A DNA stretch of 64,000 bases. Source: Sphingomonas sp. AP4-R1. Its GTDB lineage: Bacteria; Pseudomonadota; Alphaproteobacteria; Sphingomonadales; Sphingomonadaceae. A program made the position numbers and the translations under genes. Location: positions 1,254,001 to 1,318,000 of the forward strand of contig NZ_CP053346.1 of the NCBI RefSeq assembly GCF_013113735.1, written 5' to 3'. The notes under the pieces were generated by a model, which was not told where the DNA came from, searched no databases, and saw nothing but the letters and a program-made list of their open reading frames with translations. Position 1 is the stretch's first letter; every line of letters begins with the position of its first letter. This document shows, piece by piece, positions 5,397-27,850 of this stretch.

Positions 5397-6098
5397 ATGG
5401 AAATCAAGCCTTTCGGGTTCAGTCGTTCGTTCGAGATCCCGGGTTCGCAGGTCGCGGCCGAGCTGGGCGAAGATCTGCTGGCGGAGATGACGACGCTGCG
5501 TGCCACGATCGTGCAGATGCGCGCGCGCCACGGCGAGGCGCTGCTGGAGGCGCGGCGCGAAGGCTTCGAAGTCGGCCGCACCCATGCCAGCGGCGAACAG
5601 TCGGGAGCGTTGCTCGCCGCGACCGACGCGCTGCACGCCGCGCTGGACAATGTGGACCTGCGCCTGTCCGATCAGATCCGCGCCATCCATCGCGACGCTG
5701 TGGATCTCGCGCTGGCGGCCGCCGCGACCCTCGCCGGCCATGCGATCGATTTCGCGCCCGGCCGCGCGGTGGACGAGGCGCTGGATCGCGCGCTGGAGCA
5801 GGTGGAGCGGGGCACCGGCCTCGTCATCCGGGTCCATCCGAAGCTGACGGAGGTGATGGAGGAAAGGCTCGCCACGCGCATCGCGCGCGAACGGCGCAAG
5901 CTCAACCTCACCCTGATGGCGGATGAGACGATCCAGCCGGGCGACGGGCAGATCAGCTGGAAGGAAGGCGCGCTCGGCGTGGACGCGGCGGCGCGGCGCG
6001 CGGCGCTGGTGGCCGAGCTGGCACCGCTGCTGGATCCCGCCGCACCCGGCACAAAAGAATCGGACACGGCAAATATTGCCGATCAAATCATCCTATAA
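5397..6098 (+). CDS. fliH: Flagellar assembly protein FliH
   Basis: About 233 aa, consistent with FliH, the stator-like regulator of the export ATPase FliI on the cytoplasmic face of the export apparatus. The sequence is largely helical with Ala/Glu/Arg-rich coiled segments. It has the C-terminal FliH/HrpE/YscL pattern around VIRVHPKLTEVMEERL and ends with a segment containing GDGQISWKEGALGVD. AGGAAAAG sits 6 bases before the ATG. It follows fliG by 31 bases. The usual partner gene fliI is not in the window. The last codons of fliH overlap the promoter-like palindrome that precedes fliF. Confidence 0.85.
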   Translation: MEIKPFGFSRSFEIPGSQVAAELGEDLLAEMTTLRATIVQMRARHGEALLEARREGFEVGRTHASGEQSGALLAATDALHAALDNVDLRLSDQIRAIHRDAVDLALAAAATLAGHAIDFAPGRAVDEALDRALEQVERGTGLVIRVHPKLTEVMEERLATRIARERRKLNLTLMADETIQPGDGQISWKEGALGVDAAARRAALVAELAPLLDPAAPGTKESDTANIADQIIL

Positions 6099-6104
6099 TG
6101 GGAT
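6090..6104 (+). promoter_or_regulatory. Motility palindrome / putative promoter of fliF
   Basis: ATCCTATAATGGGAT. The TATAAT core ends 26 bases before the fliF ATG. No TTGACA-like -35 lies 16-18 bases upstream, and no -24/-12 (sigma-54) pair is present. It is one of five strong copies found only beside motility operons in this window. It overlaps the end of fliH, so it would be an internal promoter. Confidence 0.65.
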
Positions 6105-6125
6105 GAATGAAGGCAGCGGCCTTCG

Positions 6126-7748
6126 ATGCAATCCAAGGGGCCGGCCTTGAAGGAATTACGCACTCTCGCGGCGCAGCTCGGGCCTCGCCGGCTGATGATC
6201 ATGGGCGGCGTCGTGCTGGCCCTGCTCATCGGCATCGCGGCGCTGGCGATGCGCGGATCCTCCTCCGAAATGGGGTATCTCTATACGGATCTCGATCCGT
6301 CGGCCGCCCAGGCGATCACGGAGAAGCTGAAGACGCAGGGCGTCCCCTTCCAGCTGTCGGCGGACGGCACGGCGGTGATGGCGCCGGTCGATCGGATGCC
6401 GGAACTCCGCATGAGTCTGGCGTCCGAACGGCTGGGCGGCAAGATCGGCTATGAGGTGCTGGATAGCGAGGAGGCGTTCGGCGTCTCCTCGTCCCGCGCC
6501 AAGATCAACGAGACGCGCGCGATCGAGGGCGAACTCTCCAAATCGATCGAGAGCCTCGACCGGATCAGCAAGGCCCGCGTCCATATCGTGATGCCGGAGC
6601 GGGAAATCTTTGCCGCCGAGCCCCGCAAGGCCAGCGCCGCCGTTACGGTGAAGACCAACGGTCGCCTGCCCAAGGAGGCGGTGCAGTCGATCCGCTACCT
6701 CGTCGCCTCCTCCGTGCCCGAGCTGTCGCCCGCCGCCGTCTCGGTGGTCGATCAGACGGGCGCGCTGCTGGCGCGGGCCGGCGAGGAGGGAAGCGGGGCG
6801 AGCGGCGATCTCGACGATCAGCAGACCGCGATCGAGGGGCGCCTGCGCAGCCAGCTGGAATCGATGATCGAGCCGATCGTGGGCGCGGGCAAGGTGCGCG
6901 CCGAAATCGCCGTCTCGCTGGATCGGGATCAGACACGCGAGGAAGCCGATGTGTTCGATCCCGATACGCAGGTGATCGCGCATCAGGTGACGGTCGACTC
7001 CAACGATCAGAACCAGGCCAACAATGCCGGCTCCGAAGGCGTCACCGTCGGCGCGCAGCTGCCCGATGCGAACGGCCCGATCACCGGCACCGGCGGCGAA
7101 AGCCAGCGCTCGGCGCGCAACGAATCCTCGGAGGAAACCAGCTTCCAGAACAGCCACAAGCAGACGGTCAGCGTCCGTGCGCCGGGCAAGATCAATCGCC
7201 TGTCGGTGGCGGTGATGGTCGATGGCGGGCCGCAGGGCCTGCCCCCGGCACAGGTGCAGCGCCTGACCCGGCTAGTGGAAAATGCGGTCGGCTTCGATGC
7301 GGAGCGTGGCGACAGCGTGGTGGTCGAGAGCATGGCCTTCTCCGCGCCGCCGGCGGACGGCTTCGGTGGCAATCTGCCCTTCGGCCTGACGGGCGGCCAA
7401 CTGCTCGATTTCCTGAAGTGGGTGGTGCTGGCCGGTGGCCTGATCGGTGGCGCGGTGGTGTTGCGCCGCCGCCTGAAGCCCGACGCTGCCGCCGCGCCGG
7501 TCGCGCTCACGGCCGACGCGGAGGCGCTGCTCGCGCTGCCCGACGGCAGCGCGCCGGCGGACGCCGCCGCCGCCCAACTGGAGGATCAGACCGATCACGC
7601 GACCACGATGGAACTGCTCGATCAGGAGATCGCGCTGGCCCAGGTCGATGGCCGCATCCGTCTCTCCGCGCTGCGTCGCATCGGTGACGCGATTTCGAAG
7701 AGCCCGGCCGAATCGGCCTCGGTCATTCGCCAATGGATGAACGCTTGA
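6126..7748 (+). CDS. fliF: Flagellar MS-ring protein FliF
   Basis: 540 aa, typical of FliF. It forms the inner-membrane MS ring on which the rod, export gate and C-ring assemble. A transmembrane segment lies at about residues 23-42 and a second at about 432-450. Between them are the YscJ/FliF ring-building motifs, including AFGVSSSRAKINETRAIEGELSKSI and ARVHIVMPE. The cytoplasmic tail ends in the FliG-binding helix (LRRIGDAISKSPAESASVIRQWMNA, residues about 515-540). It follows fliH by 27 bases and overlaps the annotated region of fliN only if the upstream fliN start is used. Confidence 0.97.
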   Translation: MQSKGPALKELRTLAAQLGPRRLMIMGGVVLALLIGIAALAMRGSSSEMGYLYTDLDPSAAQAITEKLKTQGVPFQLSADGTAVMAPVDRMPELRMSLASERLGGKIGYEVLDSEEAFGVSSSRAKINETRAIEGELSKSIESLDRISKARVHIVMPEREIFAAEPRKASAAVTVKTNGRLPKEAVQSIRYLVASSVPELSPAAVSVVDQTGALLARAGEEGSGASGDLDDQQTAIEGRLRSQLESMIEPIVGAGKVRAEIAVSLDRDQTREEADVFDPDTQVIAHQVTVDSNDQNQANNAGSEGVTVGAQLPDANGPITGTGGESQRSARNESSEETSFQNSHKQTVSVRAPGKINRLSVAVMVDGGPQGLPPAQVQRLTRLVENAVGFDAERGDSVVVESMAFSAPPADGFGGNLPFGLTGGQLLDFLKWVVLAGGLIGGAVVLRRRLKPDAAAAPVALTADAEALLALPDGSAPADAAAAQLEDQTDHATTMELLDQEIALAQVDGRIRLSALRRIGDAISKSPAESASVIRQWMNA

Positions 7749-7762
7749 AGGACGCCCTGATC

Positions 7763-8110
7763 ATGGACACGCATTCCACGCCTCATCCCCTTCCGCTTCC
7801 TTCGGCCGAACTGCGCGACGATGCCGGCATGGCCGCCGCGCCGGAGCCTGCGGCCTCCACCACGGCACCGGGCGATCTGCAGCCGGTGATGGACATTCCC
7901 GTCCGGATGCGGGCCATCCTCGGCCGCGCGCGGATGGATCTGAACCAGCTGCTCCGCCTGAAGGCGGGCGAGGTGGTGGAGCTGGATCGCCGCGCGGGCG
8001 AGCCGGTCGATATCTTCGTCAACAATCGCTTCATCGCGCGCGGCGAAGTGGTGCTGATCGACAATGATCTGGGCGTCACGCTGACGGAAATCGTCCGGCA
8101 GGATCGTTGA
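7763..8110 (+). CDS. fliN: Flagellar motor switch protein FliN
   Basis: About 115 aa. C-ring component. The C-terminal two thirds form a SpoA (surface presentation of antigens) domain: IPVRMRAILGRARMDLNQLLRLKAGEVVELDR, then VNNRFIARGEVVLIDNDLGVTLTEIV. The first 40 residues are a Pro/Ala-rich linker. GAAGGA is 10 bases before the ATG at 7763; an in-frame ATG at 7733, inside fliF, would add 10 residues but has no Shine-Dalgarno. Its stop overlaps the next start in TGATG. Confidence 0.94.
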   Translation: MDTHSTPHPLPLPSAELRDDAGMAAAPEPAASTTAPGDLQPVMDIPVRMRAILGRARMDLNQLLRLKAGEVVELDRRAGEPVDIFVNNRFIARGEVVLIDNDLGVTLTEIVRQDR

Positions 8111-8601
8111 TGCGCGAGCCGCCTTATCCTTTCGCCGTGTCGGAGGACGACGCGGCCGAGCGCCTGCTGCTGATCGGCTATCGCCATCATGTGCTGGAGG
8201 TCGCCTTCGATGTGGCGCGCAAGAATGCCGCCACCCTTTCGGTGCGCGCTTTCAGTCGCGAGATGCTCGCTGCTCTGGCGGAGGGTGAAGGCGATCTGCT
8301 GGGGATCGAAATGCATTTCGGCCGCGTCGCCGAAAGCCTGCCGCAGGCCGCGCCTCCGCCCACGGACGGCCTGATGCCCGCCGTCGACACGCTCGTCGGC
8401 CGCAACCTCGCCGATGTGGAGCAGGCGTTGATCCTCACCACGCTCACGCATTGCAACGGCAACCGCACGTCGGCCGCCGCCATGCTCGGCATCTCGGTGC
8501 GGACGATGCGCAACAAGCTGCGCGCCTTCCTGGATGACGGCGTTGCCGTCACCCCCGCCGGGCCATGTGCCGGCGGCCCCTTCTTTTCCGGACCGCACTG
8601 A
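8110..8601 (+). CDS. Stand-alone FlbD-like Fis-type DNA-binding protein (no AAA+ domain)
   Basis: About 163 aa. Residues about 95-145 (LVGRNLADVEQALILTTL, then NRTSAAAMLGISVRTMRNKL) form a Fis-type helix-turn-helix almost identical in pattern to the C-terminus of FlbD, the alphaproteobacterial flagellar sigma-54 activator. The AAA+ domain with its GAFTGA loop and the receiver domain are absent. The first 90 residues match nothing I recognise and are not catalytic-looking. Start and stop are translationally coupled: TGATG overlap with fliN and again with flhA. It probably binds DNA and helps control flagellar genes, acting without sigma-54 activation. The target is unknown. Confidence 0.82.
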   Translation: MREPPYPFAVSEDDAAERLLLIGYRHHVLEVAFDVARKNAATLSVRAFSREMLAALAEGEGDLLGIEMHFGRVAESLPQAAPPPTDGLMPAVDTLVGRNLADVEQALILTTLTHCNGNRTSAAAMLGISVRTMRNKLRAFLDDGVAVTPAGPCAGGPFFSGPH

Positions 8602-10718
8602 TGCCCCCGATCCTCGACATGCTGGTGCGGCGCGTGGGATCGGGCCGCGATCTCGCGCTCGCCACGGGCATCATCGCCATCATCGCGATGCTCATCCTGC
8701 CGATGCCCGGTTGGCTGCTGGATTTCGGTCTGGCCTTGTCGATCACGGTCTCGGTGCTGATCCTGATGACGGCGCTCTTCATCGAAAAGCCGCTCCAGCT
8801 TTCCAGTTTCCCCACGATCCTGCTGATCGTCACGATGCTGCGGCTGGGCCTGAACCTCGCCTCCACGCGCCTGATCCTGGGGCATGGGCATGAGGGGCAT
8901 CAGTCGGCGGGCGGGGTGATCGGCGCGTTCGGCGAATTCCTGATGGGCGGCGAGACGATCATCGGCCTCACGATGTTCCTGATTCTCGTGGTCATCAATT
9001 TCGTCGTGATCACGAAGGGCGCGAGCCGCATCGCGGAGGTGGGCGCGCGCTTCAGCCTGGATTCGATGCCCGGCAAGCAGATGGCGATCGATGCCGATCT
9101 GTCGTCGGGCATGATCTCGGAAGCGGACGCGCGCCTGCGCCGGGATGAGCTGGAGGCGGAGAGCGGCTTCTACGGCGCGATGGATGGTGCCTCCAAATTC
9201 GTGAAGGGCGATGCGATCGCCAGCCTCGTCATCACGGGCATCAACATCCTCGTCGGCCTCACGATCGGCGTGCTGATCCACGGCCTGCCCTTCGGCGATG
9301 CCTTCCGCAGCTATACCGTGCTCACGGCGGGCGAAGGGCTCGTCAGCCAGATCCCGGCGCTGATCGTCTCGATCGCGGCGGGCCTGCTCGTCTCCAAGGG
9401 CAGCGTGAAGGGCAAGACCGGCGCGGCCCTGGTCGATCAGCTCGGCCGCTATCCCAAGGCGTTCGGCATGGTCGCGGCGCTGATGGCCGGCCTCGCGCTC
9501 ATGCCGGGCTTGCCGCTTTTGCCCTTCGCCTGCTTCGCCGGCCTCGCCGGCTGGGCCGCCTGGCACATGATGCGCAAGGAGGAGGGGCGCGTCGCCGAGG
9601 AGTGCGTGCAGGCGATGCTGCAGGAGCGCGAGGCGAACAATGTGGAGGAGCCGATCGCGCGCACGCTCGCGATCGACGCGGTCCGCATCGAGCTGGGCTA
9701 TGCGCTGCTGCCGCTCATCAACGACAGCAATGCCGAGCCCCGTCTGGACGATCAGGTGCGCGCGCTGCGCCGCCAGATGGCGACCGATTACGGCTTCGTG
9801 CTGCCCTCGGTCCGTATCCTCGACAATATGGCGCTGGGACCGAACGACTATATCATCTTCATCAAGGAGACGGAGGCGGCGCGCGGCCAGATCCGCATCG
9901 ACAAATTGCTCGTCATCAATCCCGACGGCGCGGACATCGGCCTGCCGGGCGAACCGACGCACGAGCCCGTCTTCAACCTGCCCGCCATCTGGATCGATCG
10001 CGGCATGCGCGACGAGGCGGGGCTGCGCGGCCTCACCACTGTCAACAGCGGCACCGTCATCACCACGCACCTGACCGAGATCGTGAAGAGCAACCTGCCG
10101 GATCTGCTCTCCTATGCGGAGACGCAGAAACTGCTGATGGACGTCCACAAGGACTCCGAGCGGCTGGTGGCGGATATCGTGCCCGCCAAGATCTCGATTT
10201 CGGGCGTGCAGCGTCTGCTGCAGAACCTCCTGTCGGAAGAGGTCTCGATCCGCGACATTCCCTCGATCCTCGAAGGGATTGCGGAGGCGGTGGCCTTCAC
10301 CAACAATATCGGGCTGATGACGGAGCATGTGCGCGGCCGCCTCGCACGCCAGATTTCCGCGCAGCATATGCGCGACGGCGCGATCCCGATCCTCACGCTC
10401 GGGCCTTTGTGGGACGAGCGTTTCCATGCCGACATCATCGGCGAGGGTGATGATCGCCACCTCGCCATGGCGCCCACCTATCTCCAGGAATTCATCACGG
10501 CGCTGCGCGACAGCCACGATCGGCTGGCCGCGCAGGGCGAGATGCCCTGTTTGCTGACGAGCCCCGCCATCCGCCCCTTCGTCCGCTCGGTGGTGGAGCG
10601 CGTGCGGCCCAGCACGGTCGTCCTCTCGCAGAACGAGATCCACGCGCGTGCCCGCATCCGCACGCTGGGCACCCTGGGCGGCGTGCTGGCCCCGGAAATG
10701 GACGCGATCGCCGCGTAA
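8601..10718 (+). CDS. flhA: Flagellar export gate protein FlhA
   Basis: About 705 aa, normal for FlhA, the large inner-membrane component of the type III export gate. The N-terminal half has about eight transmembrane helices with the family signatures ILPMPGWLLDFGLALSITVS, TMLRLGLNLASTRLIL and the FHIPEP-like cytoplasmic loop with SRIAEVGARFSLDSMPGKQMAIDADLSSG. The soluble C-terminal domain (about 330-705) contains IELGYALLPLI and VQRLLQNLLSEEVSIRDIPSILE, which bind chaperone-substrate complexes. ATG overlaps the stop of the preceding Fis-type gene. The partner gene flhB is not in the window. Confidence 0.97.
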   Translation: MPPILDMLVRRVGSGRDLALATGIIAIIAMLILPMPGWLLDFGLALSITVSVLILMTALFIEKPLQLSSFPTILLIVTMLRLGLNLASTRLILGHGHEGHQSAGGVIGAFGEFLMGGETIIGLTMFLILVVINFVVITKGASRIAEVGARFSLDSMPGKQMAIDADLSSGMISEADARLRRDELEAESGFYGAMDGASKFVKGDAIASLVITGINILVGLTIGVLIHGLPFGDAFRSYTVLTAGEGLVSQIPALIVSIAAGLLVSKGSVKGKTGAALVDQLGRYPKAFGMVAALMAGLALMPGLPLLPFACFAGLAGWAAWHMMRKEEGRVAEECVQAMLQEREANNVEEPIARTLAIDAVRIELGYALLPLINDSNAEPRLDDQVRALRRQMATDYGFVLPSVRILDNMALGPNDYIIFIKETEAARGQIRIDKLLVINPDGADIGLPGEPTHEPVFNLPAIWIDRGMRDEAGLRGLTTVNSGTVITTHLTEIVKSNLPDLLSYAETQKLLMDVHKDSERLVADIVPAKISISGVQRLLQNLLSEEVSIRDIPSILEGIAEAVAFTNNIGLMTEHVRGRLARQISAQHMRDGAIPILTLGPLWDERFHADIIGEGDDRHLAMAPTYLQEFITALRDSHDRLAAQGEMPCLLTSPAIRPFVRSVVERVRPSTVVLSQNEIHARARIRTLGTLGGVLAPEMDAIAA

Positions 10719-10758
10719 GGGCGATCGACAGGGTGCGATCCGCCTCGACCAGTACATT

Positions 10759-10836
10759 CGTCATTGCGAGCGCAGCGAAGCAATCCAGTCCCGAACGCGA
10801 CGGGCCGGATTGCTTCGCTGCGCTCGCAACGACGAT
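10759..10836. repeat. Inverted repeat, family 2 (attgcgagcg type)
   Basis: Arms of about 27 bases, TCATTGCGAGCGCAGCGAAG... and its reverse complement, flank a short unique centre between flhA and fliK. The same family recurs at 58669-58758. It could form a large hairpin in mRNA and may act as a terminator or RNA-stability element. Confidence 0.85.
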
Positions 10837-10888
10837 GCCGGAAGATCGCGGCGGGCAGGGGGCATCAAAACACGCCGCGCGGATTTTC

Positions 10889-10903
10889 ATCCTATAATGG
10901 AAT
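10889..10903 (+). promoter_or_regulatory. Motility palindrome / putative promoter of fliK-flgD
   Basis: ATCCTATAATGGAAT. The TATAAT core ends 34 bases before the fliK TTG start. It contains an ATG (10897) in frame with fliK, but as a promoter core that ATG is unlikely to be translated. It matches the copies at 6090, 16610, 20177 and 27836. Confidence 0.65.
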
Positions 10904-10932
10904 GTAAGTTCTCAGCAGAAGGGGTCGGGCTT

Positions 10933-12327
10933 TTGCCGCTTGCCACGATCAGCGCACCGTCTTCCTCGCGCGCCGCCGCCGCGCTCGCGGCCGGGGGCCA
11001 TGCTCCCGCGGGCACTGCCCAGCCCGGAGCCTCCGCCCCGGCACAGGGCTTTGCCGATCTGGTCGATGTCGTCGTGGCCGAGCCGGTGGTGACGGCCGGC
11101 GGGCCGGCCGGCGGGGCGGTCGTGCCCGATCTGGCGACCGCACCGATTCCCGCACCCGCCAGCAATGAGCCGCGCGCCAGCCTGCCCGTCCCTTTGCCTG
11201 TCACCCCGCAGGCCCTGCCCTCCGGCGCCGTGCTGGCCGATGCCATGACATCGGAGGCGGCGATCGCGCCGCCCGAACTGCCGCCACAGCCGGCCGCCGC
11301 GTCCAAGCCGACCCCGGAGACGCCCGCGCCCGCAGAACCCGTCCGACCCATCGAGGTCCGCACGGTCGCGGATGCGCAGAGTCCGGCCATCCCGGTCTTG
11401 GTGGTCGACGCCGCGGCGACGCCGCTCACTCCCAAGCTCAAGGCCTCCGCCGATCCCATCGCCAAGGACGGCGACGAAGCGGGCGGCAAGGATACGGGCT
11501 CGGCGCTCGCGCTCGCCACGCCGCTTGCGGATCCGGCCCCGCTCGTGCCACCCGCTGCTGCCGCCACGCCCCAGCCGCAGGTCGCGCCCGTAGCGGTGCA
11601 GGTCGCGGCGGCCATCCCGTCGCAGCCGGCCGAGGAATTCGCAGCCTCCGCGCCGCAGGTCGATCCGTCCCAGCCGCTCGCCGGCGATACCGCGCCGGCC
11701 GCGTCCCACGCGGGGCTCCGCACCACCGCGCTGGCGGAGATTCCGACCCCGGTTTCCGCCGACGCCGACGGCCTCACCGCGCCATTGTTCAGCCAGGCGC
11801 TCGGCCAGCAGGTGCAGCCCGGCCCGATTCTCGCGGGCATGGCCTACGCGCCCGGCAAGGCCGCTCCCGCCTCCGCCATGGTCCGCGCGCGCGCCGGCCA
11901 GATGGGGCGCGACATGGGCGCGGTCATCTCGCGTCACGTGGTCGAGGGGCGCGATCAGGTGACGGTGCGCCTCACGCCGCCCGAAATGGGCCGCGTCGAT
12001 GTCCGCCTGTCGTTCGATCATGCGAAGGGCCTGCGCGCGATCGTCGCCACCGAAAGCCCGGCGGCGATGGACCTGCTCCGCCGCGACATGGGCGATCTGA
12101 ACCGCGCGCTGGCCGATGCCGGCATCCGCACCGATGCGGATTCGTTCCGCTTTGACAGCCGTTCGTCGGGCGGCGGTTTCGCCCAGCCCGATCATTCGCG
12201 CCAGAACCCGCAGGGCCAGTCCTCCGCGCCGTTCCGCACCGCGCGCGGAGACCTTTCCGCCGATCCCTCCGCCGAGCGCGCCTGGCGCCCGCTCCGCGCG
12301 AGCGGCGGCATCGACATGATCGCTTGA
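10933..12327 (+). CDS. fliK: Flagellar hook-length control protein FliK
   Basis: About 464 aa. The N-terminal two thirds are low-complexity Ala/Pro-rich sequence, as expected for the secreted molecular ruler. The conserved C-terminal Flg_hook domain (about residues 345-420) contains QVTVRLTPPEMGRVDVRLSF and the following MDLLRRDMGDLNRALADAGI. I chose TTG at 10933 because AAGGGG lies 8 bases upstream; the ATG at 10897 falls inside the promoter-like palindrome. The tail after the domain is Gln/Ser/Gly rich. flgD follows after 10 bases, as in many flagellar clusters. Confidence 0.92.
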   Translation: MPLATISAPSSSRAAAALAAGGHAPAGTAQPGASAPAQGFADLVDVVVAEPVVTAGGPAGGAVVPDLATAPIPAPASNEPRASLPVPLPVTPQALPSGAVLADAMTSEAAIAPPELPPQPAAASKPTPETPAPAEPVRPIEVRTVADAQSPAIPVLVVDAAATPLTPKLKASADPIAKDGDEAGGKDTGSALALATPLADPAPLVPPAAAATPQPQVAPVAVQVAAAIPSQPAEEFAASAPQVDPSQPLAGDTAPAASHAGLRTTALAEIPTPVSADADGLTAPLFSQALGQQVQPGPILAGMAYAPGKAAPASAMVRARAGQMGRDMGAVISRHVVEGRDQVTVRLTPPEMGRVDVRLSFDHAKGLRAIVATESPAAMDLLRRDMGDLNRALADAGIRTDADSFRFDSRSSGGGFAQPDHSRQNPQGQSSAPFRTARGDLSADPSAERAWRPLRASGGIDMIA

Positions 12328-12337
12328 GGAGCCTTCC

Positions 12338-13015: not shown

Positions 13016-13080
13016 TCGGCGGCCCGTATCGCTGATCGGCGAAGGCCGGGGCGGGGAAGGCCCCGGCCTCCGCCGTGCCT

Positions 13081-13112
13081 TAGCCCTCTCCCGCTTTCGC
13101 GGGAGAGGGCTA
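13081..13112. terminator. Perfect 14-bp hairpin downstream of flgD
   Basis: TAGCCCTCTCCCGC, loop TTTC, then its exact reverse complement. No T-run follows on the plus strand, so it may be a factor-assisted terminator or simply an intergenic palindrome. A second GC-rich hairpin (GGCCGGGGC / GCCCCGGCC) lies just before it at about 13042-13070. Confidence 0.5.
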
Positions 13113-13116
13113 AGAA

Positions 13117-14641: not shown

Positions 14642-14650
14642 GCGAAGCTC

Positions 14651-16609: not shown

Positions 16610-16624
16610 ATCCTATAATAGGAT
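16610..16624. promoter_or_regulatory. Motility palindrome between divergent flgF and fliL operons
   Basis: ATCCTATAATAGGAT, the most symmetrical copy: every base pairs about the centre except the middle one. It lies 59 bases from the flgF start (minus) and 123 bases from the fliL start (plus), so it could drive or control both operons. Confidence 0.65.
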
Positions 16625-19694: not shown

Positions 19695-20117
19695 TCACAC
19701 GGGTGACGCGCTGAGCGCCACGATCAGCACGCGCCGCACCGTCTTGTCCCGCGCCTTCACGCGCGCGTTGAGCGTCTTGCTCAGCGCCTCCGCATCCACC
19801 GGGGCGAAGCCGGAGACGTGCAGGCTGCCATAGTCCAGCATCGTCTCCACGATCCGCATGCGCACATCGGGCATGCGGCGGGCGATCAGCCCGGCCGTCA
19901 TCGGGCTCGACATCTGCAGCACCAGGCGCGCGTTGATGCGCCCCTCGATCCGGCTGTTGCCGAAGATCGGCACGTCCAGATCCGCGATCGGCACGAAGGC
20001 GCCGGCTTCGGTTTCGGCGCCGCCGCCCCCGAATGGAGAATTGGCGGAAAGCTGCGCGTCTCCGGAGATGGCGGCGATGATCGGCAGGACGCCGGCGGGC
20101 AGGAAACGCGGCAACAT
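19695..20117 (-). CDS. Exported FliL-like motility protein, unnamed
   Basis: 140 aa. Weak N-terminal hydrophobic segment (MLPRFLPAGVLPIIAAISG), likely a signal or anchor, then FVPIADLDVPIFG, INARLVLQMSSPMTAGLIARRMPDVRMRIVETM, and a C-terminal strand TVRRVLIVALSASPV. This strand-helix-helix-strand order resembles FliL and also the 33264 protein, which ends the same way (VSKIVITQASPM). AGGAGG is 4 bases before the ATG, an excellent Shine-Dalgarno. It is divergent from the 20211 operon and shares the palindrome at 20177-20191. Assignment to FliL is inference from topology, not a motif match. Confidence 0.7.
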   Translation of the reverse strand: MLPRFLPAGVLPIIAAISGDAQLSANSPFGGGGAETEAGAFVPIADLDVPIFGNSRIEGRINARLVLQMSSPMTAGLIARRMPDVRMRIVETMLDYGSLHVSGFAPVDAEALSKTLNARVKARDKTVRRVLIVALSASPV

Positions 20118-20176
20118 GGGTCCTCCTAAAAAATTGTCAGCCAATTGCGCGCATCCGAACCGTCGGCCCGCGCCTA

Positions 20177-20191
20177 ACCCTATAATAGGAG
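20177..20191. promoter_or_regulatory. Motility palindrome between 19695 gene and 20211 operon
   Basis: ACCCTATAATAGGAG. The core ends 24 bases before the 20211 ATG. Its left edge lies 59 bases from the start of the divergent 19695 gene, the same distance as between the 16610 copy and flgF. Confidence 0.62.
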
Positions 20192-20210
20192 TAATTTTCG
20201 GAGCATTGTC

Positions 20211-20480: not shown

Positions 20481-22276
20481 AGGCGCTGGGGCTCGTCCTG
20501 ACGGGAACCGCGACGCTGGCGAGCGGCCTCGCCGCGCTGTCGGCGCAGGCCGGCCTGCCGCCGTCCCCCGGCCCGTCGCTTCCGGCCGCGCGCCGCGAAT
20601 TTGCGGCGCGGCTCGCGCAGCGTCCGCCGCTTGTCGGGCCCGATGCGTGGACCGTCATCGGCGAGGCCTCGGCCTGGACGGCGCTCTCCGCCGATCGCGA
20701 TCGGCAGGCGAAGCGCTGGGATTATGCGCGCAGCCTGATCGGGCGCGGTCGCGGCTCCGAGGCGATCGGCGTGCTGGACGTGATGCAGCAGGACGATCCC
20801 GATCTGCGGATGGTGGAGGCGTTCCGGCTCGCGCGCGGCGCCGCACTCACGCTCATTCGCCGGTATCCGGATGCGGTCGCCGAATTCGATGGCCGGGACG
20901 ATGGCGCGCCGCTGGCGACGCCGGAGGCCTGCGCCTGGCGGATGCGTCTGTTCTCGGAATCGGGCGATGCGGCCGATGCGCTCGCGCACGCCGGCTGTGC
21001 GTGGCCCGCCGTCCGGGCGCGCGCCGCCGCCGATCGCAAGCCCTTCCTGATCGCCGCCGCGCGATCGGCGGTGGAGAGCGGCCAGCCGGCTTATGCGTTG
21101 CGCTGGCTGGAGGGACTGCCCGATCGCGATCCGGCCGCCAATCTCTATCGCGGGCGCGCCTTGGTCGCGCTGGGACACCCCGATCGGGCACGCCTGCGGA
21201 TCGCGCGCGTGCTGGAAAGCGGCACCGGCCCCGAGCGGGCCGAGGCGCGGCTGGCCATGATCGAGGGGGGCGTGGCCGATGGCACGCTCGGCCCCCGCGC
21301 CGCTTTGCTGCGGCTGGAGCAGTTCCATTATGACTGGCGCGGCGATCCCGTCGAGGAACGTGCGCTGCGCCTCACCTATCGGCTGGCCGATAGGTCGCAG
21401 GATGCGGCGGGCGCGCTGACGGCGGGCGCCACTTTGCTGCGCTATTTCGGCCCGCAGCATCAGCCGCCGGGCTTTGCCACCGGCGTGCAGGCGAAGCTCG
21501 CCACGTTGGTCGCGCCGGGCACGCGCGTCCCGCTGGATCGCGCGGCGGGGCTGTTCTGGGATTATCGCGATCTGCTGCCGAGCGGTGTCGCCGGTGACGA
21601 GATGGTCTCGGGCCTCAGCGAGAGGCTGCAGCGTGCGGGCCTGTATCAGCGCGCGGCCGCTTTGCTGGAATATCAGCTTTTCTCGCGCGCGCAGGATCTG
21701 GCGCAGGGGCCGCTCTCGGCCCGCACCGCCAGCCTGTTCATCCTCGCCGGGCGCCCGGATCACGCGCTTACGGTGCTGAACCGCACGAACAACATCGCCT
21801 TCACGGACGACATGCTGGGCGATCGCCGGCGCGTGGAGGCGGTGGCGCTCTATCATACCGGCCGTGTGCAGAAAGCGCTGTCGCTGCTGAACGACGTGCC
21901 GGCGAGCGGTGCGCTGCGGGCGGAGCTGCTGTGGAAGCAGCGCAACTGGCAGGCGCTGGCCGCCACGCTGGGCCCGCTGCTGCCGGAGCCCGTCACTCGC
22001 GCCACCGCGCCGATCAGCGATGTCGATCAGGCGATCGTGCTGCGCCAGGCGATCGCGCTGGCGATGCTGGGGCGTGGCGCCGATCTGCAGGCGCTGCACG
22101 GCCGCTACGCGGCGACGTTCGCGGCTCTGCCTTCGGCCAGCCTGTTCAACATGCTCACCGGCCCTGTCGAGGCCCTCGATCCCGCTTTGATCAGCCGCGC
22201 CATGGCAGCGATGCCGGCGGCCAGCCCGGCGGGATCCATGGCCGATCTGATCGACGCGCCGATGGGCCGCGTCTGA
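20477..22276 (+). CDS. Exported TPR-like helical repeat protein in motility cluster
   Basis: 599 aa. N-terminal signal peptide (MKALGLVLTGTATLASGLAALSAQAG), then wholly helical sequence with recurrent A/L/Y pairs of the tetratricopeptide type, for example RGRGSEAIGVLDVMQQDDPDLRMVEAFRLARG, ESGQPAYALRWLEGLP and LYQRAAALLEYQLFSRAQD. No enzymatic motif is visible. TPR proteins scaffold complexes; an exported one beside stator and chemotaxis genes could act at the motor periphery, which is inference. It overlaps the 20211 gene by four bases and is followed 42 bases later by the mcp gene. Confidence 0.8.
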   Translation: MKALGLVLTGTATLASGLAALSAQAGLPPSPGPSLPAARREFAARLAQRPPLVGPDAWTVIGEASAWTALSADRDRQAKRWDYARSLIGRGRGSEAIGVLDVMQQDDPDLRMVEAFRLARGAALTLIRRYPDAVAEFDGRDDGAPLATPEACAWRMRLFSESGDAADALAHAGCAWPAVRARAAADRKPFLIAAARSAVESGQPAYALRWLEGLPDRDPAANLYRGRALVALGHPDRARLRIARVLESGTGPERAEARLAMIEGGVADGTLGPRAALLRLEQFHYDWRGDPVEERALRLTYRLADRSQDAAGALTAGATLLRYFGPQHQPPGFATGVQAKLATLVAPGTRVPLDRAAGLFWDYRDLLPSGVAGDEMVSGLSERLQRAGLYQRAAALLEYQLFSRAQDLAQGPLSARTASLFILAGRPDHALTVLNRTNNIAFTDDMLGDRRRVEAVALYHTGRVQKALSLLNDVPASGALRAELLWKQRNWQALAATLGPLLPEPVTRATAPISDVDQAIVLRQAIALAMLGRGADLQALHGRYAATFAALPSASLFNMLTGPVEALDPALISRAMAAMPAASPAGSMADLIDAPMGRV

Positions 22277-22318
22277 CCCAATTCATTGTCCGAAACCGTC
22301 CGAGCAAGGGGAAAGCAA

Positions 22319-23749
22319 ATGATCACATGGTTCGTCCAGACTGCGCCGATCCGGCAAAAGCTGTTTGTTGCGTTCACGCTTTGCGTTCTGGTGCAGTTGG
22401 CGGGCGGCGTGGCCGGTCTGCTGATCCCGTCGAAGGACCTGATCCTCATCGTCGCGGGCTTCATCGCATCGGGCGTGCTTTCGCTCACGCTCTGCAAGAT
22501 GATCGCCGATCCGTACGTCGCCACCGTCATCGAGATGGAGACGCTGGCGGGTGGCAATCTCGATGTCGAGATGACGCGCCGCAACTATAAGGACTGTGTC
22601 GGCCGGCTCTCGCGCGCCATGGCGGTGTTCCGGGATTCGACCGCGCAGGGCATCGCGCTCGCCAAGAAGGAGGAAACCCACGCCCAGCAGCAGGCGGTGA
22701 TCGTCAACGCGCTGGCGAGCGGGCTGAAGGCGCTGGCGGCGGGCGATCTGCAGCATCGCATCAACGCCTCGTTCCCGAGCGAATATGAGCAGCTGCGCGC
22801 CGACTTCAACGCCGCGATGGACAACCTCGCCGATATCATGGTGCAGGTCTCCAGCTCGGCCGACAGCATCAAGACGGGCTCGGCCGAGATCAGCTCGGCG
22901 TCCGACGATCTGTCGCGCCGCACCGAGCATCAGGCGGCGTCGCTCGCGGAGAGCGCCGCCTCGATGGATCAGGTGACGGCGATGGTGCGCGAGACGGCGG
23001 CGGGGGCCGGCGCGGTCCGCTCGTCGGTCGCCGAGGCGCATGGCGATGCCACCAAGGGCGGCAAGGTCGTGCAGGATGCGATCGTCGCGATGGACGGCAT
23101 CGAGCGCAGCTCGCAGGAGATCGCGCAGATCATCAGCGTGATCGACGGCATCGCCTTCCAGACCAACCTGCTCGCGCTGAACGCGGGCGTGGAGGCGGCG
23201 CGCGCCGGCGATGCCGGCAAGGGCTTTGCGGTGGTCGCCAACGAGGTGCGCGCGCTCGCCCAGCGCTCGGCCGATGCCGCCAAGGACATCAAGGCGCTGA
23301 TCACCGCCAGCAGCAAGCAGGTGGAAAGCGGCGTGCAGCTGGTGGGCGAAACCGGCCGGATGCTCGCCAACATCGTCGCCAAGGTGGGCGAGATCAGCGG
23401 CGCGATCAGCGTGATCTCGGCCTCCACGGAGACGCAGGCCGCCAATCTGCAGCAGGTCAATGGCGCGGTCGGCGACATGGACAAGATGACGCAGCAGAAT
23501 GCCGCGATGGTGGAGGAGTCGACCGCCGCCGCGCGCAGCCTGGCGGCCGAGGCTGATCATCTGGCCGAACTGGTGACGCAGTTCGATCTCGGCCACGGTG
23601 GCGGCTCCGCGCCGGCCCGCAACAATCGCAACGTGCGCACGATCAAGTCCGCACCGCGCGCCAAGCGGGCGTCCGCGCCGCTCGTCCACGGCAATCTGGC
23701 GCTCGCCCAGACCCAGCCCGCCGACGACAGCGACTGGACCGAATTCTGA
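22319..23749 (+). CDS. Methyl-accepting chemotaxis protein without a large periplasmic domain
   Basis: About 476 aa. Two adjacent transmembrane helices (about 17-36 and 41-60) with only a few residues between them, so there is almost no periplasmic sensor. A HAMP region follows (about 60-115), with a second HAMP-like stretch (DLQHRINASFPSEYEQLRADFNAAMDNLADIM). The signalling hairpin is classical: IISVIDGIAFQTNLLALNAGVEAARAGDAGKGFAVVANEVRALAQRSA. It ends in DWTEF, a CheR/CheB-tethering pentapeptide like NWETF. AAGGGGAAAG precedes the ATG. cheR and cheB follow, so adaptation enzymes are made beside it. Confidence 0.96.
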   Translation: MITWFVQTAPIRQKLFVAFTLCVLVQLAGGVAGLLIPSKDLILIVAGFIASGVLSLTLCKMIADPYVATVIEMETLAGGNLDVEMTRRNYKDCVGRLSRAMAVFRDSTAQGIALAKKEETHAQQQAVIVNALASGLKALAAGDLQHRINASFPSEYEQLRADFNAAMDNLADIMVQVSSSADSIKTGSAEISSASDDLSRRTEHQAASLAESAASMDQVTAMVRETAAGAGAVRSSVAEAHGDATKGGKVVQDAIVAMDGIERSSQEIAQIISVIDGIAFQTNLLALNAGVEAARAGDAGKGFAVVANEVRALAQRSADAAKDIKALITASSKQVESGVQLVGETGRMLANIVAKVGEISGAISVISASTETQAANLQQVNGAVGDMDKMTQQNAAMVEESTAAARSLAAEADHLAELVTQFDLGHGGGSAPARNNRNVRTIKSAPRAKRASAPLVHGNLALAQTQPADDSDWTEF

Positions 23750-23792
23750 TCCTCCTGCCGCGCCCGTGCCGCAAGAACAGAAAGTACAAGCC

Positions 23793-24683
23793 ATGAAGAA
23801 TATGCGGCTGATCCAGGCCGGTGAGCCGGCAGAAGCCGGCGGCACCGGCGCGGCGACCGAATATGCGTATCGCAAGCAGGATTTCGAGGCGATCTCCGCT
23901 TTGGTCTATGACCATGCGGGGATCACCCTCGCCGATGGCAAATCGACGATGGTCTATTCGCGCCTGGCCAAAAAGCTGCGCGCCAAGGGCCTCGACAGTT
24001 TCGCGGACTATGTCGCGCTGGTCCGGCGCGATCCGGCGGAGCTGGCCGCCTGCATTGAGGCGCTCACCACCAATCACACGCGGCTCTTTCGCGAGGGCCA
24101 TCATTTCGATCATTTCCATGCCCATGTCCGCAGCGGGCTGCTGGCCAAGGCGATGCGCCGCAGCAAGGTGCGCCTCTGGTCGGCGGGATGCTCCAGCGGC
24201 GAGGAAGTCTATTCGCTGACGATGACGCTGCTGGGCCGCGATCGCGAGGCGGCCTCGATGATCGGCGGCGCCGATCTGCTGCTGCTGGCGAGCGACATCA
24301 ACGAGCGCGTCCTCGCGCTCGGCCGTGCCGCCCAGTATCGAGGCGGCGACGTCACCGACATTCCCGAGCCGTATCGCAGCCTCTGGACCCAGCGGACGGC
24401 CGACGGCTTCGAGATACGCGAGGAGGCGCGCCGGCTGGTGCGCTTCCGGCAGCTCAATCTGCTCCATGCCTGGCCGATTTCGGGCCAGTTCGACGTGATC
24501 TTCTGCCGCAACACGATGATCTATTTCGATGAGGAGACGAAGGCGCGCCTCCTCTCGGGCTTCGCCGATCGGCTGCTGAGTGGCGGCTATCTCTATATCG
24601 GCCATTCGGAGCGGCTGGTCGGTCCCGCCACCGCCAGGTTCAAGAGCGTCGGCCAGACCATCTATCAGAAGGTGGCGGCATGA
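23793..24683 (+). CDS. cheR: Chemotaxis protein methyltransferase CheR
   Basis: About 296 aa. Transfers methyl groups from S-adenosylmethionine to receptor glutamates. N-terminal helical domain (about 20-90, DFEAISALVYDHAGITLADGK...MVYSRLAKKLRA), then the Rossmann methyltransferase with VRLWSAGCSSGEEVYSLTM (SAM-binding GCSSGEE), LASDINERVLALGRAAQY and FDVIFCRNTMIYFDE. The start at 23793 has only a weak Shine-Dalgarno; ATG 23802 is an alternative. It sits between mcp and cheB and overlaps the cheB start. Confidence 0.95.
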   Translation: MKNMRLIQAGEPAEAGGTGAATEYAYRKQDFEAISALVYDHAGITLADGKSTMVYSRLAKKLRAKGLDSFADYVALVRRDPAELAACIEALTTNHTRLFREGHHFDHFHAHVRSGLLAKAMRRSKVRLWSAGCSSGEEVYSLTMTLLGRDREAASMIGGADLLLLASDINERVLALGRAAQYRGGDVTDIPEPYRSLWTQRTADGFEIREEARRLVRFRQLNLLHAWPISGQFDVIFCRNTMIYFDEETKARLLSGFADRLLSGGYLYIGHSERLVGPATARFKSVGQTIYQKVAA

Positions 24684-25708
24684 TCGTCCGCACCGTGATC
24701 GTCGACGATTCTCCCACGATGCGTCGCCTGATCGCGACGATGCTGCGCCGCGATCCCGACATCCTCGTGATCGGCGAGGCGGACGGGGTCGAGAGCGCGC
24801 GCCAGCTGATCCGCGATCTGAACCCGGACGTGGTGACGCTCGACGTGGAGATGCCGGGCATGAACGGGCTCGATTTTCTCGAGCGGATCATGCGCCTGCG
24901 GCCAATGCCCGTCGTGATGGTATCGACGCTCACCGCGCACGGCGCGGACGTGACGTTGCGCGCGCTGGAGCTGGGCGCGGTCGATTATTTCCCGAAGCCC
25001 ACCGGCCCGATCGAGGATTTGTTGCGCACCGACGATGGCAGCCTCGCCAGTAAGGTGCGCGATGCGGCGCGGACCTGCGTGCAGGCGCGCGCGCGTCGCC
25101 GCGCGTCCACGATGCCGCCACAGCTCAATTTCAACGGCAACGGCTTCCTGATCGGCATCGGAGCGTCCACCGGCGGGGTCGAGGCCCTGCTGGAGGTGCT
25201 GAGCGGCTTTCCCGCCAATTGCCCGCCGACCGTGGTGGTGCAGCATATGCCGGGCACCTTCACGCAGCAATTCGCGAACCGGCTGGACCAGCAATGCCTG
25301 CCCACCGTGGAGATCGCGCGCCAGGATGCGTTCCTGCAGCCCGGCCACGTTTATATCGCGCCCGGCGGCGAGCGGCACCTGACGCTGCGGAGCCCCGAAC
25401 GTCCCTTCTGCAGCCTGCGCGAAGGCGAAACGGTGAGCGGTCATCGCCCCTCGGTCGACATGCTGTTTCGCTCGATCGCGAAGATCGCCGGCGGCCGCGC
25501 CGTGGGCGTGCTGCTGACGGGCATGGGTGCGGACGGCGCCGCCGGCCTGCTGGAGATGCGGACCAGCGGCTGCGTCACGATCGCGCAGGACAAATCCACC
25601 AGCGTCGTCTTCGGCATGCCGCGCATCGCGATCGAGATGGAGGCGGCCAATCACGTCGTGCCGCTCGGCCGCATCGCCGCCAAGGCGATCGAACTGTGCA
25701 GCGCGTGA
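24680..25708 (+). CDS. cheB: Chemotaxis methylesterase/deamidase CheB
   Basis: 342 aa. Receiver domain (1-120) with DD at 9-10, phosphoacceptor Asp55 (TLDVEMPG) and Lys in FPKP. The C-terminal esterase domain has the catalytic triad Ser163 (GIGASTGG), His189 (VVQHMPG) and Asp285 (TGMGADG). It removes receptor methyl groups when phosphorylated by CheA. ATG overlaps the cheR stop. Confidence 0.97.
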   Translation: MIVRTVIVDDSPTMRRLIATMLRRDPDILVIGEADGVESARQLIRDLNPDVVTLDVEMPGMNGLDFLERIMRLRPMPVVMVSTLTAHGADVTLRALELGAVDYFPKPTGPIEDLLRTDDGSLASKVRDAARTCVQARARRRASTMPPQLNFNGNGFLIGIGASTGGVEALLEVLSGFPANCPPTVVVQHMPGTFTQQFANRLDQQCLPTVEIARQDAFLQPGHVYIAPGGERHLTLRSPERPFCSLREGETVSGHRPSVDMLFRSIAKIAGGRAVGVLLTGMGADGAAGLLEMRTSGCVTIAQDKSTSVVFGMPRIAIEMEAANHVVPLGRIAAKAIELCSA

Positions 25709-25755
25709 TGATGCAGCATCCATCCCCCTCTCTTCTCAGCCCTGCCGGAGTTCGC

Positions 25756-26331
25756 ATGACGGGATCCTCGACGGCCACCGCCCCGCGTCCCGCGCCGGAA
25801 CAGCGCCGGATGATCACGATCGTCGAGGGCACGCAGCATGTGACGCGCGACCCCGCCGAGATACTGACGACGGTGCTGGGCAGCTGCGTCGCCGCCTGTC
25901 TGTTCGATCCCATGCTGGGGATTGGCGGGATGAACCATTTCCTGCTGGCGGAGCCTGACGGGTCCGCCGCCAGCGCCGCGCAGGAGGAGCGTTACGGCGC
26001 CTATGCGATGGAGCTTCTCGTCAACGAGATGCTGAAGCGCGGCGCGCTGCGCTCCCGTCTGCGCGCGCACCTTTATGGTGGCGGAAGTCTCCGCGCCGGC
26101 ATGGCCGATATCGGCGCGCGCAACGGCGCTTTCGCCCGCGACTTCCTGGAGAAGGACGGGATCGAGATCCGGCACATGAATCTGGGCGGGCAGGTGGCGC
26201 GCCGGATCGAGTTTCGCGCCGCGCGCGGACAGGCGCGCTGCCGCGTGATGCCGATCGAATCCTGTCTCGATCAGGTGCCGGCCCGCCGGCAGGCGCCGCC
26301 GCCGAGCAGCGGCGATGTCGAGCTGTTCTAG
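25756..26331 (+). CDS. cheD: Chemoreceptor glutamine deamidase CheD
   Basis: About 191 aa. CheD deamidates receptor glutamines. The catalytic Cys44 is in TTVLGSCVAACLFDP and His61 in GGMNHFLL, in the family order and spacing. LYGGGSLRAGMADIGARN and the DLGG-like MNLGGQVARRIEF follow. GGAG is 5 bases before ATG 25756. A GTG at 25707, overlapping the cheB stop, would add 16 residues but lacks a good ribosome-binding site. Downstream is cheW. Confidence 0.94.
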   Translation: MTGSSTATAPRPAPEQRRMITIVEGTQHVTRDPAEILTTVLGSCVAACLFDPMLGIGGMNHFLLAEPDGSAASAAQEERYGAYAMELLVNEMLKRGALRSRLRAHLYGGGSLRAGMADIGARNGAFARDFLEKDGIEIRHMNLGGQVARRIEFRAARGQARCRVMPIESCLDQVPARRQAPPPSSGDVELF

Positions 26332-26386
26332 GTGCTTATCCCAGCATGAATTCGTCCCACCAGGCTTCGCAGGAAGGAAGGCCATC

Positions 26387-26827
26387 ATGATACGCCAGAT
26401 CATCACCTTTCAGATCGGGGAACAGTTCCTCGGCGTCGACATCCTCGCCATTCGCGAGATCCGGGCCTGGTCGCCCACCACGCTGCTGCCGCAGGTGCCG
26501 GAGCATGTGCGCGGCGTCGTCAATCTGCGCGGCACGGTGCTGCCCGTGATCGATCTGTCGGCGCGGCTGGGCTGGGGCCTGATCGAGCCGACCGCGCGCC
26601 ACGTGATCATCGTCGTCCAGATCGGCGATCAGCTGCACGGCCTGATCGTGGATGCGGTGAACGACATCGTCTCGCTGCCGGAAGAAGGCCTGCAGCCCGC
26701 GCCGAACGTGAACGAGGAGCGCGCGGCCGATTTCCTCGAAGGCCTCGCGCCCGTGGACGACAAGATGGTGATGGTCCTGTCGCTGGGCCAGCTCGCCACC
26801 GAGGTCGATCTGCTTCAGGCCGCGTGA
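26387..26827 (+). CDS. cheW: Chemotaxis coupling protein CheW
   Basis: 146 aa. One CheW-like SH3 domain covers the whole protein: IITFQIGEQFLGVDILAIREIRAW, VRGVVNLRGTVLPVIDLSARLG (the NLRG signature) and LIVDAVNDIVSLPEEGLQPAP. It links receptors to CheA. AGGAAGGAAG precedes the ATG. It lies 55 bases after cheD in the mcp-cheR-cheB-cheD-cheW order. Confidence 0.96.
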   Translation: MIRQIITFQIGEQFLGVDILAIREIRAWSPTTLLPQVPEHVRGVVNLRGTVLPVIDLSARLGWGLIEPTARHVIIVVQIGDQLHGLIVDAVNDIVSLPEEGLQPAPNVNEERAADFLEGLAPVDDKMVMVLSLGQLATEVDLLQAA

Positions 26828-26907
26828 GCCCCGGGATCGTCCGGGCGGTGCGGGTCCTGCCGCGCCGCCCGGATGCCGGGTCGGGATCAGGATGGAGATT
26901 GTGAACC

Positions 26908-27120
26908 ATGACGCACGACGACATCGAGATCCTGGCGGCCGGCCATCTCAAATTCTATGGGCCGCGCGCGCAGCTGATGATCGACGAGATCATCAAGACG
27001 CATTCGCTGAACGAGGATTGGGACGAGGTCCGCAAGTGGAATCGCGTGAAGATCCGCATCGCGCGGCGTGAGCTGCGCGCGAAGGGCGAGACGCATATCT
27101 TCCCGCTGAGCGAGCTGTGA
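26908..27120 (+). CDS. Small soluble basic/acidic protein, unknown
   Basis: 70 aa with no hydrophobic helix. The sequence is strongly charged and predicted helical: HDDIEILAAGHLKFYGPRA, then MIDEIIKTHSLNEDWDEVRKWNRV and KIRIARRELRAKGE. I do not recognise a family. It follows cheW by 80 bases on the same strand; GGATGGAGA lies 9-12 bases upstream. Codon use matches its neighbours. It may be the last gene of the chemotaxis operon. Confidence 0.6.
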   Translation: MTHDDIEILAAGHLKFYGPRAQLMIDEIIKTHSLNEDWDEVRKWNRVKIRIARRELRAKGETHIFPLSEL

Positions 27121-27168
27121 TGGGCCGCCGAGAGCGCTGTCGCGCTGTTTGGAATGGTTTGCGGCGGC

Positions 27169-27181
27169 GCCTATAATTGCC
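27169..27181 (+). promoter_or_regulatory. Orphan CCTATAAT core
   Basis: GCCTATAATTGCC keeps the CCTATAAT core of the motility palindrome but not its flanks. It lies just before an inverted repeat, with no gene start within 500 bases on the plus strand. It is possibly a chance or decayed copy. Confidence 0.2.
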
Positions 27182-27266
27182 CGTTCGCACTGAGCTTGTC
27201 GAAGTGCCGTTCTTTCTGCCGCAGCGAGAAGAAGGACGGTGCTTCGACAAGCTCAGCACAAACGGT
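27181..27266. repeat. Inverted repeat, family 1
   Basis: CCGTTCGCACTGAGCTTGTC and the inverted arm GACAAGCTCAGCACAAACGG surround about 45 bases. It lies between the convergent 26908 gene and flaF and is a likely shared transcription-end element. Confidence 0.85.
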
Positions 27267-27329
27267 TCTCTGGAATCGCGCAGCACAGCGACCCGTCGGG
27301 ATCGCTGTGCCACCTATTGCTCATGCGCC

Positions 27330-27704
27330 TCAGTTGATGCGCGCCACCGGCGCGGCCGGCGGCATGGCCAGCCCCTCCATCACGGTGCGGTTGATCGCAA
27401 TCAGTTCGTCCACCGTCTCGGCGCCCTTGATCACCTCGCTCGTGTGCCGTTCGACGAACAAGGCGAGCGAGACGATGCCCGAGCGCGTCTCCACCGGCAG
27501 CTCGTTCGCGTCGTGGAGACACAAAGTGGAGAAGGTGGACCACAATTCGCGATTGCGGTGGAGCGCCGGCATCAGGGCGACGCCGGCCAGGCCCGCGTCG
27601 CGCGCCCGGACCATGACGCTCGTGATCTCGCTGATCAGCCGATATTCCGTCGTGCGCGGCGTTTCGGAAAAGGTGCGGGCCTGCTGATAGGCATGCAGTG
27701 ACAT
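27330..27704 (-). CDS. flaF: Flagellin synthesis regulator FlaF
   Basis: 124 aa. FlaF works with FlbT to control flagellin mRNA translation and secretion in alphaproteobacteria. Family features are SLHAYQQARTFSETPRTTEYRLISEITSVM at the N-terminus, then ALHRNRELWSTFSTLCLHDANELP and SIVSLALFVERHTSEVIKG. AGGGG sits 5 bases before ATG 27704; an in-frame ATG at 27719 is less well placed. Its usual partners flbT and the flagellin genes are not in the window. A variant of the motility palindrome lies 23 bases upstream. Confidence 0.92.
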   Translation of the reverse strand: MSLHAYQQARTFSETPRTTEYRLISEITSVMVRARDAGLAGVALMPALHRNRELWSTFSTLCLHDANELPVETRSGIVSLALFVERHTSEVIKGAETVDELIAINRTVMEGLAMPPAAPVARIN

Positions 27705-27727
27705 GGCAACCCCTGACATGATTCAGG

Positions 27728-27740
27728 CTCATTCTAGGAT
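27728..27740 (-). promoter_or_regulatory. Variant motility motif upstream of flaF
   Basis: On the minus strand, ATCCTAGAATGAG. It differs from the consensus ATCCTATAATRGG by one base in the core. The core ends 26 bases before the flaF ATG, the same distance as for fliF. Confidence 0.5.
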
Positions 27741-27835
27741 GCCGCATTCCGGAAGCGGTGACGCCGCCTTCTTTTTTCCGCTCCACGCTGATCGATAAGG
27801 AAAATCCGTCCCGCGCCGCGTCGGCCCCGGCATTC

Positions 27836-27850
27836 ATCCTATAATCCACT
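27836..27850 (+). promoter_or_regulatory. Motility motif / putative promoter of motA operon
   Basis: ATCCTATAATCCACT. The left half and TATAAT core are perfect, but the right half is not palindromic. The core ends 38 bases before the motA ATG. Confidence 0.6.

Follow-up and report, generated by a model that had tools for sequence, protein, structure and literature searches.

Which factor reads the promoters of the large flagellar cluster of Sphingomonas sp. AP4-R1, and do these promoters form a class of their own? The question is raised by a 64,000-nucleotide stretch of the 5.27 Mb genome (G000:C1:1254001-1318000, hereafter the window). From its sequence alone, an original prediction had pointed to a 15-base near-palindrome with a TATAAT core in front of motility operons, being either a dedicated promoter class or an operator over a -10 box. 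The alpha-type cluster in the window comprises fliG, fliH, fliF, fliN, a helix-turn-helix (HTH) protein of the HTH_8 type at the flbD position, flhA, fliK, flgD, an flgF-type gene, fliL, fliM, a TPR operon, chemotaxis genes, flaF, motA and cheA; beyond the window it continues leftward with flhB, flgI, flgE, flgK and flagellin genes. Some 17 kb to the left of fliF, and 11-12 kb to the left of the window, lies a σ70-like gene of 351 amino acids that we label sigX (G000:C1:1241718-1242773, minus strand). Our results firmly establish the promoter class and give its specificity good support. What is conserved is not the 15-base palindrome but an extended -10 element with a direction, TCCTATAAT. In our opinion, the promoters are probably read by a dedicated sigma factor, the product of sigX, which would have taken the place of FlbD/σ54 control.

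The copies of the element in the window, with the first genes behind two of them, are given below. The scores come from a matrix trained on 28 sites from four other genomes (G027, G012, G107 and G418), while gene starts and strands assigned by script come from our own simple codon-based gene finder.

4265..4273, plus strand: weaker core TCCTATAAG upstream of fliG (score 16.3)
Same site, minus strand: overlapping form directed toward gene 1475-4228(-) (score 17.8)
6091..6099, plus strand: TCCTATAAT core of the fliF promoter (score 27.8; 26 nt to ATG)
6126..7748, plus strand: fliF, first gene behind the 6090 promoter
10890..10898, plus strand: TCCTATAAT core of the fliK/flgD promoter (score 26.7; 34 nt to the called start)
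16611..16619, plus strand: TCCTATAAT core of the fliL-fliM promoter (score 27.5)
16615..16623, minus strand: overlapping core TCCTATTAT for the flgF-type gene, making a two-way site as at the corresponding junction elsewhere (score 19.7)
20178..20186, plus strand: core CCCTATAAT of the 20211/TPR operon promoter (score 23.8)
20182..20190, minus strand: overlapping core for gene 19695-20117 (score 17.2)
27731..27739, minus strand: weaker core TCCTAGAAT upstream of flaF (score 14.1; 26 nt)
27837..27845, plus strand: TCCTATAAT core of the motA promoter, with the left half of the 15-mer only (score 24.2; 38 nt)
27884..28774, plus strand: motA, first gene behind the 27836 promoter

The core CCTATAAT is present at all five places originally named (6090, 10889, 16610, 20177 and 27836), and this part of the claim stood. 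The palindrome itself is exact only at 6090 and 16610, with one mismatch at 10889 and two at 20177; since 27836 fits it by the left half alone (ATCCTATAATCCACT, 11/15), to say that it occurs at all five was an overstatement. With up to three mismatches allowed, the 15-mer gave eight strand matches at four places in the window, against a shuffle mean of 0.32. The weaker forms that had been proposed are real (TTTTCCTATAAG at 4265 on the plus strand and GCATCCTAGAATGAG at about 27731 on the minus strand, before flaF). Together with 24 nt at the 20211 open reading frame, the only one of these starts not taken from our gene finder, the core-to-start distances agree with the predicted 24-38 nt. The best score listed in the right half of the window was 11.3, at 41638 and inside a gene; thus, the statement that its housekeeping half holds no strong copy also stands. 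Overall, 18 sites of at least 15 bits were found in 104 kb scanned, versus 1.2 in mononucleotide shuffles; among these 18, some symmetric places are counted again on their second strand, and two of the 18, one intragenic, lie further left in L021.

Genome-wide, TCCTATAAT occurs 11 times, and eight of these copies are intergenic and read toward flagellar, stator or cyclic di-GMP (c-di-GMP) genes. Seven belong to the main cluster, standing before flgE, fliF, fliK, fliL and motA and forming a divergent pair (L022:878/923) in front of genes resembling fliN and flgC, as identified by eye. One core of the class (TCCTATAATAGGC, L023:4610, G000:C1:568609) is found 86 bp upstream of a gene for a GGDEF diguanylate cyclase. 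This gene is flanked by fliH and fliI in a second flagellar cluster of a different kind, and its promoter suggests that the main flagellar regulon feeds into c-di-GMP. The remaining three copies are either intragenic (two) or about 490 bp away from a gene (one).

The same picture emerges from the relatives. CTATAAT elements precede the orthologous operons in G027 and G012, which carry the same cluster, and a TCCTATAAT-type core is also found before motA in several relatives. In 80 sphingomonad loci, 117 copies of TCCTATAAT fall within 10 kb of sigX, versus two of the reversed pattern, although many of the 117 are the same orthologous promoters, so that the counts are not independent. All but one of these copies (116/117) are intergenic; 105 of the 116 are directed at the next gene, which in 83 cases is at most 150 bp away. 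Matrix matches of at least 15 bits were present in 66 of the 70 flagellar-linked sigX loci (235 matches) and in six of the ten other loci (six matches), compared with 15 matches in one shuffle of all 80 loci; the training genome G027 is also among the 80, as L205. Sphingobium boeckii DSM 25079 has many copies of the element; Sphingomonas sp. S2M10 (L178) carries sigX too, but with a single strong matrix site no more than 10 kb away. An unbiased ranking of 8-mers against their reversed words brought only GATC-type words to the top. Requiring RG after TATAAT gave a less informative pattern than TCCTATAAT by itself, and the counts of that pattern were not used. The class recurs at orthologous flagellar operons across Sphingomonadaceae.

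What the promoters share was further seen in a logo of 37 promoters, retained from 45 sites after eight that were opposite, in-gene or edge-cut had been dropped. Here, YCA stands at -18 to -16, A or G is favoured just downstream of TATAAT, A prevails at +1 to +3, and the -52 to -46 region is rich in A/T; positions -14 to -7 are constrained by choice, since the sites were picked on [TC]CTATAAT. The logo holds no -35 element, and its +1 A sits 7 nt after TATAAT, matching the start anticipated 6-8 nt after this hexamer. Genome-wide specificity, conservation across genomes, direction toward the next gene and the A-rich +1 thus bear out the idea of a dedicated class uniting flagellar and stator genes.

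Alternatively, the palindrome might be the operator of a dimeric repressor or activator lying over the -10 box. The symmetry is exact or nearly so at 6090, 10889, 16610 and 20177, and at 6090 and 10889 no divergent gene lies upstream. However, what is conserved has no symmetry: G follows TATAAT in 50% of the 116 intergenic copies near sigX, later positions drift, the RGGAT half lacks conservation in relatives, and motA has the left half only. Moreover, among 25 two-strand sites in the scanned stretches of eight genomes, 21 are located between divergently transcribed genes, versus 30 of 66 one-strand sites (Fisher p 0.0009, computed on partly orthologous and hence not independent sites). A two-strand site is found at the fliL/flgF-type junction, judged from position and neighbours, in this genome, G027, G012, G192, G135, G166 and G418; in the window, symmetric -10 elements separate divergent genes at 16610, 20177 and the fliG junction. 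Asymmetric conservation and the bias toward divergent genes rule out the palindrome as the shared unit and disfavour the operator, which we regard as very improbable. Two-strand sites would rather be expected to fire in both directions. The idea of divergent promoters leaves 6090 and 10889 unexplained; antisense transcription or a local preference for the RGGAT half could be behind their symmetry.

What, then, reads this class? We propose sigX because of its linkage to the promoters, its co-occurrence with them, its fold and the fate of FlbD. In 23 sigX genomes (G338 was left out), 133 copies of TCCTATAAT were counted, and 79 of them are no more than 50 kb away from sigX, where 3.6 were expected. 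The protein carries a sigma70-family region 2, responsible for core binding and -10 recognition. As regards region 4.2, a profile aligns TKERVRQITKRA to that of RpoS, and PF04545 is precomputed for many relatives but was not found in the protein of this genome. Despite some annotations as RpoH (sigma32), sigX does not match a curated RpoH model (15.4 bits on PRK07500, cut-off 315), nor does it match FliA (sigma28), scoring 21.8 bits on the FliA_WhiG model TIGR02479 against a cut-off of 189.6.

A FliA above the curated cut-off exists in this genome (at 602857, about 30 kb from the examined part of the second flagellar cluster) and in 10 of the 22 further sigX genomes searched, and might itself be thought to drive the class. 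Yet no FliA-like match above 112 bits was found in five of the 23 sigX genomes (G143, G216, G166, G044 and G135), and three of them, G143, G216 and G166, carry five, four and three copies near sigX. The motif is also unlike the sigma28 -10 element GCCGATAA. FliA was rejected as the driver of the class, and we give this explanation practically no weight.

Upstream of sigX itself, within 450 bp, 16 of the 80 loci have a TCCTATAAT that reads in the direction of the gene, and 10 have one pointing the other way. These 16 loci, together with a weaker core form 143 nt upstream of sigX in this genome, suggest autoregulation of sigX. Separately, a near-perfect palindrome, ATCCCATAATGGGAT, lies at L022:8867-8881, 94 bp before sigX, and fits neither promoter direction well; at the corresponding place in 10 of the 80 other loci, six of them from Novosphingobium, TCCTATAAT points away from sigX.

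The fate of FlbD adds a further line of evidence. The gene and the site concerned in the window are the following.

8107..8601, plus strand: FlbD remnant, with the C-terminal Fis-type HTH kept and the AAA+ domain absent (Pfam matches to the HTH only)
6067..6081, plus strand: ftr-like palindrome CGGCAAATATTGCCG upstream of the fliF core, likely a FlbD-type site (putative)

The remnant lies between fliN and flhA, and its product matches the FlbD model NF050807 only at 390-449 of 454. FlbD was scored in 19 of the 24 strong sigX genomes (G338 was left out, and G345, G388, G282 and G044 gave no FlhA match at threshold), and in all 19 it lacks the ATPase domain or key motifs. Eleven of them, including this genome, have an HTH-bearing remnant without AAA+ upstream of flhA, the one in G418 additionally retaining a receiver part. 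In the other eight, FlbD is full-length, but GAFTGA has become GAFPGA, GDFPGA or GAFAAA or is gone, and the DE of Walker B is replaced in each. Conversely, both GAFTGA and DE are intact in all six genomes scored whose lack of sigX was confirmed (G028, G013 and G045 from this family; G060, G061 and G072 from others). RpoN itself remains in 31 of 33 genomes, so that a loss of RpoN was rejected and the change looks specific to flagellar control.

The main rival explanation assigns the TATAAT boxes to RpoD which, without a -35 element, would need an activator, either the FlbD remnant at ftr sites or CtrA, whereas sigX would be unrelated. TATAAT is, after all, the -10 consensus of the housekeeping sigma70. 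Besides fliF, where G027 and G012 have similar palindromes, ftr-like sites persist upstream of 31 of the 117 near-sigX copies, many of them before flbT-like genes; the FlbD remnant may therefore act at some of these promoters. Also, enhancer-binding proteins without GAFTGA (NtrC of Caulobacter and Rhodobacter, and VspR) are reported to be active at sigma70 promoters (PMC10274813). On the other hand, most copies have no ftr-like site, and a sigma-like gene sits in the same cluster. The TCC before TATAAT and the YCA at -18 to -16 also differ from the usual extended -10, TGn. Overall, we consider RpoD with an activator unlikely, though clearly less so than the operator or FliA.

Such evidence leads us to favour sigX. 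In this scenario, ATCCTATAAT (core YCTATAAT) would be the extended -10 of a dedicated class for the alpha-type flagellum, the stator and associated signalling genes. As an alternative sigma70-family factor that presumably binds RNA polymerase, sigX would contact the -10 through region 2, and no -35 would be involved. Recruitment might be helped by a site near -50 that is A/T-rich and in some cases ftr-like, with the FlbD remnant, devoid of its ATPase, or the alpha subunit as possible binders. Between divergent operons, a single near-palindromic copy would serve as promoter in both directions. sigX would have replaced the FlbD/sigma54 tier of a Caulobacter-type scheme.

Several points weigh against this scenario. 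First, shared ancestry and a single type of flagellar cluster act as confounders for the association of sigX, the motif and FlbD decay; the hexamer being that of housekeeping sigma70, the persistence of RpoN and the small share of copies with an ftr-like site count here as well. Half of the six sigX-less genomes come from other families, and two of the rest are poor assemblies (G028, 67% complete; G013, 86% complete with FlbD in pieces). A scan for -24/-12 elements gave one weak candidate in eight sigX clusters and none in three sigX-less clusters or in G043; being negative in sigX-less clusters too, it does not discriminate. The structure model of sigX, built from 18 sequences, is of low confidence outside region 2 (mean predicted local distance difference test score, pLDDT, 67; predicted template modelling score, pTM, 0.35), and Foldseek returned no PDB match at E <= 0.001, the best being a sigma factor at 6.4e-3; the list re-examined with VIA-align was that of Foldseek itself, judged by titles and not chain by chain. 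Four of the 23 sigX genomes (G294, G192, G282 and G135) have no exact TCCTATAAT near sigX, with drifted forms at the expected operons in G192, G135 and G294. Between 10 and 12 of the 80 sigX loci lack a flagellar gene within 10 kb, ten by the looser list (L156, L158, L163, L165, L172, L174, L183, L212, L216 and L217); several are extra copies within one genome (Sphingomonas kyeonggiensis, S. xinjiangensis), so sigX has paralogs. Finally, all 13 examined loci of distant sigX relatives are away from flagellar genes and without TCCTATAAT, two of them matching only CheB/CheY queries through response-regulator likeness. These loci rule out that all sigX relatives are flagellar, and family membership alone is thus no proof of promoter specificity.

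We would also like to comment on some neighbouring observations. Shorter, distant relatives of sigX in sphingomonads (L226-L238) make up a wider sigma-like family. Downstream of sigX, L022:6186-7385 (minus strand) encodes a protein of 400 amino acids whose XRE-type HTH match is weak and falls short of the Pfam cut-off, and which has relatives in 34 of the 80 sigX loci; it is a candidate co-regulator or anti-sigma factor. In some relatives, sigX is followed by another small gene with its own TCCTATAAT promoter. A third, weak FliF-like match, distant from both flagellar clusters (G000:C1:4629201-4629779), is possibly a type III secretion ring gene.

Compared with known systems, sigX resembles FliA in being an alternative sigma70-family factor for motility encoded with motility genes. 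Unlike those of FliA, its candidate promoters precede not only early genes (fliF, fliL, fliG) but also those for the stator and chemoreceptors, and their -10 is TCCTATAAT without a -35. The cluster also recalls the CtrA-FlbD/FliX-sigma54 hierarchy of Caulobacter, with a flbD-position gene beside fliF, fliN and flhA, flbT and flaF, and ftr-like sites. In Caulobacter, FlbD binds ftr as an RpoN-dependent activator; it activates middle genes and represses fliF (PMC3930126). Here, in contrast, FlbD has no working AAA+, -24/-12-like elements are nearly absent from the eight sigX clusters scanned, and the -10 class covers the operons. As in NtrC and VspR, contact with sigma54 has decayed while DNA binding stays; unlike in these cases, the whole AAA+ domain is missing from most of the FlbDs scored, and an alternative sigma gene accompanies the change. 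The pseudo-symmetry, known here from sequence, is like that of bidirectional promoters in Escherichia coli, where one symmetrical promoter fires both ways (PMC12825309), but here it would belong to a dedicated flagellar class and is retained at equivalent operon junctions in different genera. In a study of Sphingomonas sp. WG, no fliA was found in the clusters; the authors worked from an assumed FlbD/σ54 scheme and described the cascade as unclear (PMC8921679). Among titles and abstract openings, with most subscription journals outside coverage, we found no account of sigX or of the promoter class.

Keeping all this in mind, it is tempting to suppose that Sphingomonadaceae combine a private sigma70-family factor, a -10-only promoter and a FlbD cut down to its DNA-binding domain as a helper, with a rewired sigma54 tier, dead-AAA+ intermediates and self-complementary -10s for divergent operons; we see even chances that this whole picture holds. 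The question of flagellar control in sphingomonads becomes testable through a concrete gene and promoter set. Our results point to an evolutionary swap of sigma-factor control with its intermediates still present, and motility regulons could become readable from sequence in Sphingomonas, Novosphingobium and Sphingobium.

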